This document shows, piece after piece, positions 1-55,151 of a DNA stretch of 55,151 nucleotides. The translations under genes were made by a program, and so were the position numbers. A model generated the notes under the pieces. The model did not search any database and had not been told where the DNA came from. It saw only the letters and a program-made list of their open reading frames with translations. Every line of letters begins with the position of its first letter. The stretch's first letter is position 1. The stretch comes from Herpomyces periplanetae. Lineage: Eukaryota; Ascomycota; Laboulbeniomycetes; Herpomycetales; Herpomycetaceae. The DNA is taken from the NCBI GenBank assembly GCA_009733715.1, contig WMKJ01000089.1, positions 1 through 55,151 of the forward strand, read 5' to 3'.

Positions 1-89
1 ATTACCCGATTAGCTCCCGTTAAGTTAACACCCAGACCGCCCACCTTCGTTGTTAACAAGAATAAATCCAACATATTGTCATCTACTAA
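1..89. repeat. Left-end inverted repeat arm (partner 2198-2286)
   Basis: Bases 1-89 are an exact reverse complement of bases 2198-2286, which encode helicase motif V of the RAD26 gene that follows. The match stops at base 90. The loop is 2108 bp. The arm reaches base 1, so its true length cannot be seen. It replaces whatever sequence normally precedes RAD26. It is most likely a fold-back chimera rather than a biological repeat (see findings). Confidence 0.97.
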
Positions 90-3000
90 CTCAGCAACTT
101 GAACGGCTCAACTTACAGCGTCGCCTGACGTCCAGCTCATCTCGTCGTTCGCAGGCTTTGATCGAAATTCCCAAGTTGGAAAATCGGATTAGACTATGTG
201 ATATTGATATATTACAGATTCAACAAAGAGTTGACCAACGTAAAAAGCATCACAAAGCCTTGCAACAAGTGCACCAAAATGATGATTCTACGCCTCATGA
301 TAATCATTCTACGTTCAAGGGATATGATCGAGATTATTTGATACGTACTGGTAAAATTACGCCGTTTGATCAGGCATCTGCGGACTTTACCTGTAGTTCT
401 GATGAATCACCATCTAATCGGCTTAAACGTAAACTTGATTCACCATCGGTGGATGAATCTCCAAACAAACTAATTAATCCATACGGATTATTACACACTT
501 CCGAAAGTCCTTTTACCCATGACGATAGATCAGTTGATCAGCATGAAGCTGGTTATTCCGAGGAGAAGGAGGCCCATTCATCATTGGGTATTAATGTGAA
601 AAGTAAACGGCCCCGAAATGAGGAAATCATGGATTATGACGATGGTAACGAAGCGTTTTACCAGAAACGTTTATCTCTTTGGGTAGAAAAACGTTGTGCG
701 CTACGTGAAAGTGTGCTTCGATCGAGTAATGATTCTTCGCAAATTCCTACGTCTCATTCATCATCTCAGACAGCCGAATGGCATATGCCCCATCCAATTA
801 ATGGCGATGCTAAGATTTCCGATGGGTCACTAAGGATTCCCGGAGAAATTTATTCTGCGCTGTACCGGTATCAAAAAACCTGTGTTCAGTGGCTATACGA
901 ACTTTACTGCCGTAACGTTGGCGGTATAGTAGGAGATGAAATGGGTCTAGGTAAAACAGTACAAATTATATCATTCCTTGCTGGGCTGCACTATTCTAAA
1001 CTTTTGGTTAAGCCAATAATTATAGTAGCACCAGCAACTTTGATGAAACAATGGGCTAATGAGTTTCATCGATGGTGGCCTCCGTTGCGAATATTTATAC
1101 TCCATTCTTCAGGTAGTATGATGCAAGCTGGTAGTGATTCCCGGTCTTCGTCTGATCATGATTCAGATGTTGAATTCGGACAAAACTATTCATACGGGCA
1201 TTCTTCGTCGGCTATTTACAGGGCAGCCCGTAAAGCGGTTAATCGTGTACTTAAGAACGGTCACGTATTGATAACTACGTACGCGGGCTTACAGAATTTT
1301 GCGCCGCTTTTAATACCTATACATTGGCAATATGTTGTGCTGGACGAAGGCCATAAGATTCGAAATCCCAATGCTTCTGTCACTATCCACTGTAAAGAAC
1401 TTAAGAGTCGGCATCGTATCATACTCACGGGAACACCAGTTCAAAATAACTTGATTGAGTTATGGTCCCTGTTCGACTTTGTGTATCCTATGCGGCTGGG
1501 CTCGCTGGTGAACTTTCGGGAAAACTTTGAAATTCCCATTAGATTGGGTGGTTACGCCAGCGCAAGCAATTTGCAAGTACAAACCGCGTTGCACTGTGCT
1601 GAAGCATTAAAAGCAGTTATATGTGAATACTTTCTTCAGCGTTTCAAACGGGATGTTTCTGCAGACTTACCGAGTAAGCGCGAAACGGTTCTTTTCTGTA
1701 AATTAACACCGATTCAGCGTGCTGCATATAAAAAGTTTTTGGCGTCTGATGACATGAAAAGTATTCTTGATGGACGCAGACAGATATTATATGGTATTGA
1801 TATTTTGCGCAAAATATGTAATCACACAGATTTGTTACACCGAAGAAAAGTTGGTGTACGAAGACCCGATGCAAACGGATGCACGATGGATTCAACGTTT
1901 TGCTTGGACGAAACATCGGAGCATAGTGATAACTTGTATGGCGATGCACAGCGATCAGGTAAACTACTTGTATGTGGAGAATTGCTAAAATTGTGGAAGA
2001 GGCAAGGGCATAAAACTCTTTTATTTGCACAACAGCGTATCATGTTGGATATAATTGAATTGTACTTGAAACGCGATTTACCAGGGATAAGGTATTGTCG
2101 TATGGATGGGACGACAAATATCAAAGACCGACAACGACTCGTGGACATGTTTAATGATCATGCTAAGCGCAGCATGGAAGCAAGTGCATCGTCGAGTTTA
2201 GTAGATGACAATATGTTGGATTTATTCTTGTTAACAACGAAGGTGGGCGGTCTGGGTGTTAACTTAACGGGAGCTAATCGGGTAATTATATTCGACCCGG
2301 ACTGGAACCCTTGCACTGATATTCAAGCACGTGAACGAGCATGGCGGTTGGGACAGTCGCGAAGTGTACAAGTTTATCGGATGATGACACAAGGGACTAT
2401 TGAAGAAAAGATTTACCAACGGCAACTATTTAAGCAATTTCTCACGCAAAGAGTGCTTAATGCGCCTAGTAATTCGTCTGTTGGTGGAGCTGCTGGCCAG
2501 CCTGTTCAGTCGAATTTTATGGCGCAAGATTTGCACGATTTGTTCACGTTTAAAGAGGACCAGGTTAACCTTGACGATGATAAACCGGCTATAGACGAAA
2601 TTTTTGCAGGTTCGCCGAATGACTTGACGGAAGAAAGTATGGAAAAACGGGATGAAATGAACACGATAAATCAGTTTTCTCACATGTTTCGTGCTGAAGA
2701 ACTGAAAGAAAGCATAGTGCAAAAAAGCGGATCTGGGGAAGTGAAAGATACGATGCTTCAATGTATTTTACCTAAAGGTCTAAATTCAAATGTAAGCGGC
2801 AGCGCTAAATCGGATAAATCAGGGTCAGTTAGCAAGAGTGCAGTACAACCCGATGATGCCACTATCACAGCAGAAGCTAAGCGAATAGCGGATAAAGCGA
2901 CACGGGTGTTAGTGCAAGCAGCAGAGCTAGCTAAGAGTGCGGTACCGGGAACAGTAACGTGGACTGGTATGCAAGGCACGTACGGACGTCATGATGCACG

Positions 3001-3397
3001 GCAATACACGAACGGTGGAAGAGCGATAACGCATAAAGTTTGTGAACGTGGTGAAAATGATGAAGTTGCATTTTCTATGACACGCGAAGAGGGAGAATTA
3101 TTGCCCATAGTTTGCGATTTATTCGCGCAACACGGTGGATGTTTACGGACGCACGACCTGTTAAAGCGTGTAGAACCTTTACTCACGTCTATAGCTGTAC
3201 GATATGATCGCACTGGATGTGATGCGTCGAGTGTTAAAGCAACTTCCAAGGGTAACGCTAGCACGGGTGCGCATGCACTGAAGCGCGTGTTACGTCGCAT
3301 TGCTGTACTTGTTAAACCCGTGTTACCACCCCACACCGACCCGACTACTTCTAAAGGACAAGGTGTATGGAAATTACGGGACGAATGGCGCAAATAA
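90..3397 (+). CDS. RAD26: RAD26/CSB (ERCC6) SNF2-family ATPase, 5' truncated
   Basis: This is the DNA-dependent ATPase of transcription-coupled nucleotide excision repair, acting on RNA polymerase II stalled at lesions in the nucleus. The frame runs uninterrupted to TAA at 3395-3397 and encodes about 1100 residues. SNF2 motifs appear in order: motif [10 protein letters not shown] (about 932-958), Walker B DEGH (about 1342-1353; DEGH is typical of the CSB branch), motif [12 protein letters not shown], and motifs V and VI in VGGLGVNL and RAWRLGQ. The C-terminal 70 residues, with [11 protein letters not shown], resemble the ubiquitin-binding or winged-helix end of CSB. Yeast Rad26 has 1085 residues and human CSB 1493. 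No ATG precedes the helicase part in frame. The frame upstream of base 90 comes from the inverted repeat, so the true N-terminus is missing. No introns are seen. Confidence 0.93.
2198..2286. repeat. Internal partner of left-end inverted repeat
   Basis: This is the internal arm of the 89-bp perfect inverted repeat whose other arm is 1-89. It lies within RAD26 and codes for part of motif V, so this copy is the native one. Confidence 0.97.
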
Positions 3398-52522: not shown

Positions 52523-53129
52523 TTAGGAAACAGTTGCAAGGGGTTTTGAACTTGGGAGTGAAGAATGTATATTTTGCAATTTAGATAATTGAACAGCGTG
52601 TCTTTGAAGTGCATCGACCCATGTTAAATCTTTACGATGACCGGACGATTGGACAGAGCAAAAGAGAGTAGAGGATTCTCGAGCAAAGAAAAGAGTAAAA
52701 TCAGCGCCTAAACGGGCAAAGCTACCTGCAATGAAGAGGAGCTGGTTAATGAGTGCATCATGAGACACAGAGTTACGTACGTAGGGAAGGTAAGTGCGTA
52801 ATGTTGATAGAAGGATTTGAATTAAATTTAGAGCAAATGTTGAAAGTGCGCTTGGTGGATCGTTGATTTTAGAAGTAGCAGGGGTGGAAGTGGAAGCGGA
52901 AAAAGGCTTTTTGACGGTTCCCGTGGCGGCCGGACTTGCAGGCAAAGGTGAACTGACAGCTACATTTCCAAGTAGGTCATCAAGAGAGGGGTACGATTCT
53001 ACAGTGGGGAGGGGAACGGCATCTGGAAATATGCTTGTGAACATTGAGATCATGGAGAAACTCTGTTCACGAAACAATTCAAGATATCGTTTCAGAAATC
53101 GTTCAACAGGATCAATACTACCGGGCGTA
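52523..53129 (-). pseudogene. COG8: COG8 3' half, separated from its 5' part
   Basis: Encodes the last 200 or so residues of COG8, a subunit of the conserved oligomeric Golgi tether: PVERFLKRYLELFREQSFS, then a variable Ser/Pro stretch, then LINQLLFIAGSFARLGADF, the Dor1-family C-terminal signature. It starts abruptly at 53129, where the sequence switches to WARS. The first 76 bases are repeated in inverse orientation at the right edge, where they follow the COG8 5' part. This piece is therefore the native 3' end of the COG8 gene, seen in inverted orientation. Whether the break is in the chromosome or in the assembly cannot be told from sequence alone. Confidence 0.85.
53054..53129. repeat. 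Right-end inverted repeat, internal arm
   Basis: An exact 76-bp reverse complement of 55076-55151, coding for part of COG8 in both copies. The loop is 1946 bp. Confidence 0.97.
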
Positions 53130-53870
53130 CTTGGTTAAAAGTTACTAGTTTTGAAAATTCCAACGCATTCCATAGCAAGTGCATGCCTCCATTACCGTAA
53201 AAGCTTAGATCCGCGTATATAAAAGTTTTTTTAACGTCGAATCCCACCGCTATAATATCCTTTGCATTTTCACGCGCAAATTGCCGCGTTTGCTCCAGCC
53301 GGAGTCCATCCTTGAATAACATTTTTTCGTCATCCGTTAACATGATAACAAGCGGAACATCAAATGTTTCTTGTAACCATTTAGTAAATTCAAACGGTAT
53401 AGTATGCCCAATGTGAATATTATCACTCGATGGTCCACGACCCGTGTAAATAAAAAAGTCTTCTCCACGTTCGTACGCATCAAGTATCTTATCAAAATCA
53501 CGATGTGAAAAGAATAACCCCCGCCGTAACCAACGATGCGGTTTACGACCCGTAAGTCGTTCAAAACGTTCTAATAATGGTGTATCAATGACTTGCGTAC
53601 TCCATTTTCTATTTTTTGTTAAAAACCACATCTCCCACATATATCGCTTCGTTAGCTATTGACCCTCTTCATTCCACCCATCCACTTCTGCCCACGTCCA
53701 CTCCCAATTACTTTCCCCCATACGCACCGGCTAATAGCATCATAATCAATTCCCAATTCTTTGCCATGAGCATCAGTAGCTCCAGATACACTCCAAGGAT
53801 TGATGACCTGTTCATGACCTCCACCTTCTGATTCTTTTTGGGAAATCATTACCTCCACTTCCTCCGGCAT
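53130..53870 (-). pseudogene. WARS1: Tryptophanyl-tRNA synthetase, 5' part only, cut by the fold-back junction
   Basis: Charges tRNA-Trp in the cytosol. The visible CDS is complement(join(53130..53608,53728..53870)), about 207 residues. Exon 1 gives EQVINPWSVSG and the start of the IDYD motif. The 119-bp intron (GTGCGT donor, AATAG acceptor) restores ISRKWSTQVIDTPLLERFERLTGRKP in overlapping pieces, as in eukaryotic enzymes. Then come LRRGLFFSHRD, YTGRGPSSDNIHIGH (the HIGH-class motif), PLVIMLTDDEK and MHLLWNALEFSKLVTFNQ. The family continues with VKGIFGF, but here the sequence turns into COG8 on the same strand. The C-terminal half of the catalytic domain, including the KMSAS signature and the anticodon-binding domain, is absent from the window. 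Confidence 0.92.
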
Positions 53871-54140
53871 TATACCTTCATATATTCCCTTCCAACTTAA
53901 TCCCCTAGACTTGAAATTTTTTTCGCTTCACCATCGCCGCAATTTTGTATTCCTGCTTATTCAGCAGTCCTTAGGATTATCGATTTTCCGCCCCTGATTC
54001 CATTTTGTACAGTTTTCAATTCGCGTCAACCCACTCGATTATCACGGAATTCTTTTTTACGCTTTTTCCCTTAACTTTTAAATATCATAATTCTTGTTTT
54101 ATCTAATTCAATCGCTGAATTAAATTTAAGGTTATCGCTA
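53871..54140. promoter_or_regulatory. Divergent promoter, WARS / COG8
   Basis: 270 bp between two divergent ATGs, AT-rich with T-runs. It is short enough to be shared by both genes. No TATA box is convincing. Confidence 0.45.
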
Positions 54141-55151
54141 ATGGATCAGGAAATTTATACGCTTCTCTTAAAAACTATAGAGTCACAGTCCCTATATACG
54201 GACTCTAACAGTCCTTCTAGCAATGTTACTTATGCTAAATATTTAGCATCTCAAACTTTGGGTCAGCTTGATGATATTGAAAAACCAAAACTTGAAGCTC
54301 TTGCACGTCAAACCCAGGATAAAATTACAGTTTTATCCGTTACGTTTAGTGACGCTATTATTAACTCTTCACATTACCGTACCAAACTTTATTCTACGCT
54401 CCCCACTATCGCGCATGCTTGTCTCAATTCAGCTACTGCTACACACACCTTGTGTCAACGCGTTACCGAATTTATACACGCTAACTCAACATGCCCCACG
54501 ACACCCGACGCATTGCAACGACGTTCAAACCTTGATTTGACAAATCAGGTCAACCTACTATCCCGAGTTTGTGAAATTCCACGTTTAATGCGACTATTCG
54601 TCAGTGCTGTTCGCTTGTCCAATGCCCAACCAGAAACTCTCCGTGTCATTAATGTTAATTGTACGGCTGCTTTCGACCTGGCTTCCTTGGTCGCTAGATT
54701 AAATATCCTCTATCCTGAATCCCGCCTTATTAACTCCATTGTTAACAAGGTTAACCGCCAGATGCTTCAATTATCAACAAACTTACTCTACGATTTACGT
54801 TTACCTGCGCTTAAGTTACCCAATGCCGTTCGAATCATTGGTTGGCTTCGTCGCTTTCCCGTTACTCTTGACTCAAATTCCCCCCGTTTGTTAACCTCAT
54901 CTCTCAACATGGACAATGCCTGTTCACTTGATGCAAGTCTCGGATCAATACTTCTGGTTTCTCGTTATGCAAACTTTCTTAATGAATTAAATTCGTTGAC
55001 TCAATATCAAAGTGCTGCTGATGCTGAAATATCTCAGCTTTCCCATGAAAAACCCACTGCCCTTTAAGCCAACCTTACGCCCGGTAGTATTGATCCTGTT
55101 GAACGATTTCTGAAACGATATCTTGAATTGTTTCGTGAACAGAGTTTCTCC
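54141..55151 (+). CDS. COG8: COG8, 5' part, running off the window
   Basis: Subunit of the COG tethering complex for retrograde transport within the Golgi. ATG at 54141. About 308 residues are open: the N-terminal helices, then the Dor1 core with NVNCTAAFDLASLVARLN, LYPESRLINSIVNKVN and LRLPALKLPNAVRIIGWLRR. A TAA interrupts the frame at 55065-55067. The same frame then resumes directly (ANLTPGSIDPVERFLKRYLE) into the C-terminal region to the edge. The stop lies in a variable linker, 8 bases before the inverted repeat begins. It may reflect an unseen intron, a sequence error or disturbance at the junction. Together with the fragment at 52523-53129 it would make a normal-length COG8 (about 500-600 residues). 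Confidence 0.88.
55076..55151. repeat. Right-end inverted repeat, edge arm
   Basis: An exact reverse complement of 53054-53129, running to the last base of the window, so its true length is unknown. Confidence 0.97.

Follow-up and report, generated by a model that had tools for sequence, protein, structure and literature searches.

An inverted junction of WARS and COG8 at the right edge of a Herpomyces periplanetae contig reads most probably as an amplification chimera

The right edge of contig WMKJ01000089.1 of the fungus Herpomyces periplanetae joins the N-terminal half of WARS, which encodes cytosolic tryptophanyl-tRNA synthetase (TrpRS), to an inverted copy of the 3' part of COG8, and thereby raises the question of whether the inverted duplication belongs to the chromosome or was made in the laboratory. 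The window examined here is the whole contig (C207; 55,151 bp). From its sequence, the right-edge structure is judged with high confidence to be an inverted chimera of multiple displacement amplification (MDA) combined with an assembly tip, that is, a laboratory artefact, and the genome of the organism very likely lacks it. This judgement is reached because the assembly was made by MDA, the arms are inverted, the span is about 2 kb, the homology at the switch appears short, and the structure is placed at a contig end; a chimera of this kind had been proposed in a first-pass annotation, and the proposal is supported by the amplified origin of the genome, the inverted arms, their span, and the position of such pairs at or beside contig ends. 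The assembly (WMKJ01) was prepared by REPLI-g MDA of a single thallus, with 2x125-bp Illumina reads assembled by SPAdes at k 21-117, and has a GC content of 40.23% and a largest contig of 347,628 bp (PMC7005119); this announcement is the only literature on the H. periplanetae genome assembly that was found. The GC content is 41.1% in the window and 40.6% in 60 end stretches of other contigs.

The arms of the right-edge pair were recovered by an exact inverted-pair search of the window as two stretches of 76 bp, 100% complementary and spaced 1946 bp, which confirms the perfect inverted copy described in the first-pass annotation; the last base of the contig is the end of the terminal arm. The pair is not attributable to chance, since 234 25-mers of the window have an inverted copy and none was found in any of 20 first-order Markov resamples (20/20). 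A second pair, overlooked earlier, lies at the left edge, with arms of 89 bp that are 100% complementary and spaced 2108 bp. Away from the ends of the window, no exact inverted pair of 25 bp or more was found among arms up to 6 kb apart. A DNA search of the genome's contigs with the 76-bp second copy returned matches in this contig only, and neither contig edge was found in other contigs by a DNA search of 220 contigs. That searched set amounts to 13,790,361 bp (shortest contig whose size was seen, 10,746 bp), whereas the published assembly comprises 15,006,634 bp in 632 contigs >1 kb, such that approximately 1.2 Mb lies outside it.

Both pairs fit what has been described for MDA, in which displaced 3' ends prime on strands close by. 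Among 475 chimeras from one amplified E. coli cell, 406 were inverted, with 337 of the 406 joining sites <10 kb apart, and at least 2 complementary bases accompanied 93.5% of the inverted chimeras <10 kb apart (PMC1855051). Elsewhere, the distances between chimeric segments range from 0 to 5000 nt and the overlaps peak at 6 nt (PMC4595205), and inverted chimeric pairs rise 10-20 fold with MDA (PMC3842359). The window offers inverted orientation in both the 76-bp and the 89-bp arms, spans of 1946 and 2108 bp, each <10 kb, and a source of amplified DNA (PMC7005119).

Which of the two right-edge joins is false was decided by comparison with homologues (coordinates in the table below). On the minus strand, the reading frame up to the switch matches cytosolic TrpRS chains of known structure from yeast (2ip1, E=2.9e-59) and human (1r6t, E=3.2e-54), and the closest of seven aligned homologues (P0001) shares 74% identity with it. 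The family motif NQV(K/R)G, invoked in the earlier reading, was borne out as NQVRGAFGF in 7/7 aligned TrpRS homologues, whereas in the window NQVR is followed by PVVLILLNDF and then a stop. WARS therefore breaks at the switch, as had been claimed, but its frame does not pass into that of COG8: the ten residues before the stop are out of frame. On the plus strand, the Pfam Dor1 profile runs across the other join (54243-55142, profile 4-284, with one TAA within), and a minus-strand match covers 52682-53104 (profile 219-319). Conserved COG8 residues flank 55075|55076 with a spacing like that in four homologues when the TAA is aligned as X. Because the alignment to COG8 homologues runs through 55075|55076 without a break and TrpRS homologues misfit 53130|53129, the former is taken as the probable native join and the latter as the probable false one. 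The earlier statement that the plus strand carries COG8 in its native order thus stands in that the gene reads across 55075|55076, but it must be tempered by the in-frame TAA that interrupts it. An intron that would remove this TAA was considered and dropped, as the splice pair judged by eye to preserve the frame has a poor donor and would delete a conserved A-D-x-E stretch; the 19 codons around the TAA (X at the stop) align with homologues when retained.

Features of the two edges of the 55,151-bp window
Feature	Position	Strand	Remarks
Left-edge terminal arm	1-89	+	Inverted copy of 2198-2286; read as chimeric tail
Left-edge internal arm	2198-2286	+	Inside Helicase_C match of SNF2 protein (ORF 29-3397); read as native
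COG8 3' part	52523-53129	-	
Right-edge internal arm	53054-53129	+	Minus strand is COG8 coding sequence (GSIDPVERF...)
Presumed microhomology TACGC	53125-53129	-	V-R of NQVRG motif
Junction read as chimeric	53129/53130		Minus strand: WARS (...TTTAACCAAG) switches to COG8 (TACGCCCGG...)
WARS (cytosolic tryptophanyl-tRNA synthetase), N-terminal half	53130-53625	-	Ends after NQVR
Upstream WARS exon match	53724-53834		
COG8 (Dor1) 5' part	54141-55075	+	In-frame TAA at 55065-55067
Join read as native	55075/55076		COG8 5' part into COG8 3' part
Right-edge terminal arm	55076-55151	+	Inverted copy; carries COG8 on in native order

The first COG8 bases after the switch, TACGC, retain the V-R expected of WARS, and a microhomology of about five bases, as suggested in the first-pass annotation, is plausible. 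The retention is uncommon among 5-mers, 5334 of 287,146 (1.9%) keeping V-R after the G, and favours the suggestion, while the length of the match stays presumptive. Homology extending further upstream, with gaps allowed, was also considered and dropped, 264 of 5000 random places being equally good. At the left edge, the ORF 29-3397 carries an SNF2 domain and a Helicase_C domain (residues 650-775); because the Helicase_C match contains 2198-2286, this copy is taken to be native and 1-89 to be the tail. The false join is thus read as the outer one at the left edge and the inner one at the right edge, and the left-edge pair belongs, on this reading, to the same class of artefact as the right-edge pair.

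The proposed sequence of events is as follows. If segment A denotes 53130-55075 and segment B the 3' half of COG8 with the sequence beyond it (the reverse complement from 53129 downwards), the chromosome would hold A followed by B, with COG8 in one order, and WARS would continue past 53130 into its missing half. During amplification by phi29 polymerase, a minus-strand 3' end that had copied B, A, and the start of WARS would have been freed at about 53130, would have re-annealed where B begins, some 2 kb back, aided by the short match TACGC, and would have been extended, to give a product in which A lies between two inverted copies of B. The SPAdes path would then comprise one copy of B, the chimeric junction, A, and only 76 bp of the second copy of B, presumably because a tail of at least 117 bases (k) would match k-mers that the graph already contained. 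The left edge would follow the same geometry, with the 3' end at 90, the new template at 2198, and the native junction on the main path. At both edges, the new template would lie upstream of the 3' end, as might be expected because a downstream switch would leave a tail matching DNA outside the contig. The sequences and their coordinates, the gene content, the position at contig ends, and the published assembly method are the observed basis of this scheme; the priming step, the length of the microhomology, and the behaviour of the graph are the parts that we infer.

A biological alternative is a real chromosomal fold-back inversion or inverted duplication: template switching mediated by microhomology would have taken place in the fungus itself, interrupting WARS and duplicating the 3' side of COG8. 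Template switching in the cell and in the tube are indistinguishable by sequence alone, and the outcome of the search for the rest of WARS is compatible with this alternative. An intact WARS continuing past the switch, which the first-pass annotation had suggested seeking elsewhere in the genome, was not found in the 220 contigs searched, and its C-terminal half gave no significant match in this same part of the published assembly: the full-length fungal TrpRS P0001 as query returned two exons only, both in the window, and 216 residues from its C-terminal part returned one match (E=0.198) with three stops. A search with the Pfam profile PF00579 gave matches on three further contigs (C170, C109, and C103), read by us as cytosolic tyrosyl-tRNA synthetase (TyrRS), mitochondrial TyrRS, and the first exon of mitochondrial TrpRS, respectively, although this search is not exhaustive, as it missed the window's own WARS half; the NF008924 profile matched that half and the TyrRS on C170, and the WARS C-terminal half was absent from its matches. 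Nevertheless, a fold-back would disrupt an essential gene, would require like events at the left and right edges of C207 and also at one end of each of two further contigs, with second copies that end within 90 bp at the terminal base, and would have to be accepted in an assembly made by MDA (PMC7005119). It is therefore regarded as extremely unlikely. A variant, in which the fold-back is real, cytosolic TrpRS is truncated in at least some nuclei, and a mitochondrial-type TrpRS (the first-exon-like match on C103) serves both compartments, is scarcely credible.

Whether such pairs are tied to contig ends was addressed by a census of exact inverted pairs whose arms are at least 25 bp long and lie within 6 kb of each other. 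It covered 61 stretches with 287,151 bases in all, and thereby 62 of the 440 contig ends: 40 left ends of other contigs (6 kb from 20 of them and 2.6 kb from the other 20), 20 right ends of other contigs (3 kb each), and both ends of C207. The sample is end-enriched, 60 of its 61 stretches being the outer 2.6-6 kb of contigs. Inverted pairs were present at five sites, four of which reach the terminal base of a contig (both ends of C207 and the left ends of C17 and C214). At the left end of C17, 1-67 pairs with 249-315 as 39 bp, one mismatch, and 27 bp, with 181 bp between the inner pieces; at the left end of C214, 1-34 pairs with 1416-1449 over 34 bp, with 1381 bp between the arms. These two terminal inverted copies are probably the same artefact as in C207. 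The fifth site is a perfect 28-nt palindrome near the right end of C6 (2950-2977 of the end stretch), with 23 bases between it and the end. Every non-palindromic pair in the census is consequently terminal, and the terminal arms, at 34-89 bp, are all shorter than 117, the largest k used by SPAdes. Pairs not tied to contig ends, as expected of a real fold-back, were not seen in this end-enriched sample. Separately, contig C212 starts with ACGCTCTTCCGATCT (positions 1-15, left end), which we take to be the end of an Illumina adapter.

A second alternative holds that the chimera arose from library preparation or from the assembler alone, without MDA as its cause. If the adapter assignment is right, library debris did reach the first base of a contig (C212). 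Moreover, about 3% of read pairs are chimeric without amplification, and most chimeric pairs are ascribed to library preparation (PMC3842359). By contrast, a span of about 2 kb is presumably longer than typical short-insert fragments, and the main path of a 53-kb contig should not depend on a single library molecule; this alternative is accordingly considered very unlikely.

Several observations also weigh against the MDA chimera favoured here. The commonest chimeric distance given in PMC4595205, 250-300 nt, is well under the approximately 2 kb seen here, and, according to PMC3842359, by far the greatest share of chimeric read pairs arises in library preparation. At 58 of the 62 ends no terminal arm was seen, copies beyond the fetched stretch being undetectable, and two of the four terminal sites belong to C207 itself. 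The main path at the right edge holds the chimeric rather than the native junction despite the many cells and templates of a thallus, which would require the native DNA to have been poorly amplified at this place, an assumption on our part. The WARS 3' half was not among the 220 contigs, such that its native continuation stays presumed. Finally, 8 bases separate the COG8 TAA, which falls in a variable linker, from the join taken as native; the TAA may be a sequencing or amplification error, a real stop, or the mark of a pseudogene.

If the preferred reading as an MDA chimera holds, users of the public assembly should not infer gene loss or inversion at the edges of C207, and gene models that cross these edges would be artefacts, namely a truncated WARS, a COG8 with parts on both strands, and an SNF2 protein whose N-terminal stretch is spurious. 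Such tips can be screened for quickly by looking for terminal inverted copies that are shorter than the k of the assembler. Known systems provide three points of comparison. Fold-back inversions in living genomes consist of inverted arms around a loop with microhomology, and are present in unamplified DNA and not tied to contig ends. The structure described here likewise has inverted arms around a loop and a presumed microhomology, but differs in that such pairs lie at or beside contig ends in the end-enriched census. The contig-end errors of MDA-data assemblies are a second comparison: in PMC3842359, differences from the reference are small and generally at contig ends, and, as here, discrepancies at the ends shorten contigs; unlike those errors, the right-edge chimeric join sits 2 kb inside the contig, on the main path. 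The third comparison is with the inverted MDA chimeras of Lasken and Stockwell (2007; PMC1855051): although these were seen in individual reads aligned to an established reference, whereas the present case is an assembled contig from which the native sequence past the switch is missing, both display an inverted join of sites <10 kb apart, and the switch involves a few complementary bases in those chimeras and presumably here too.
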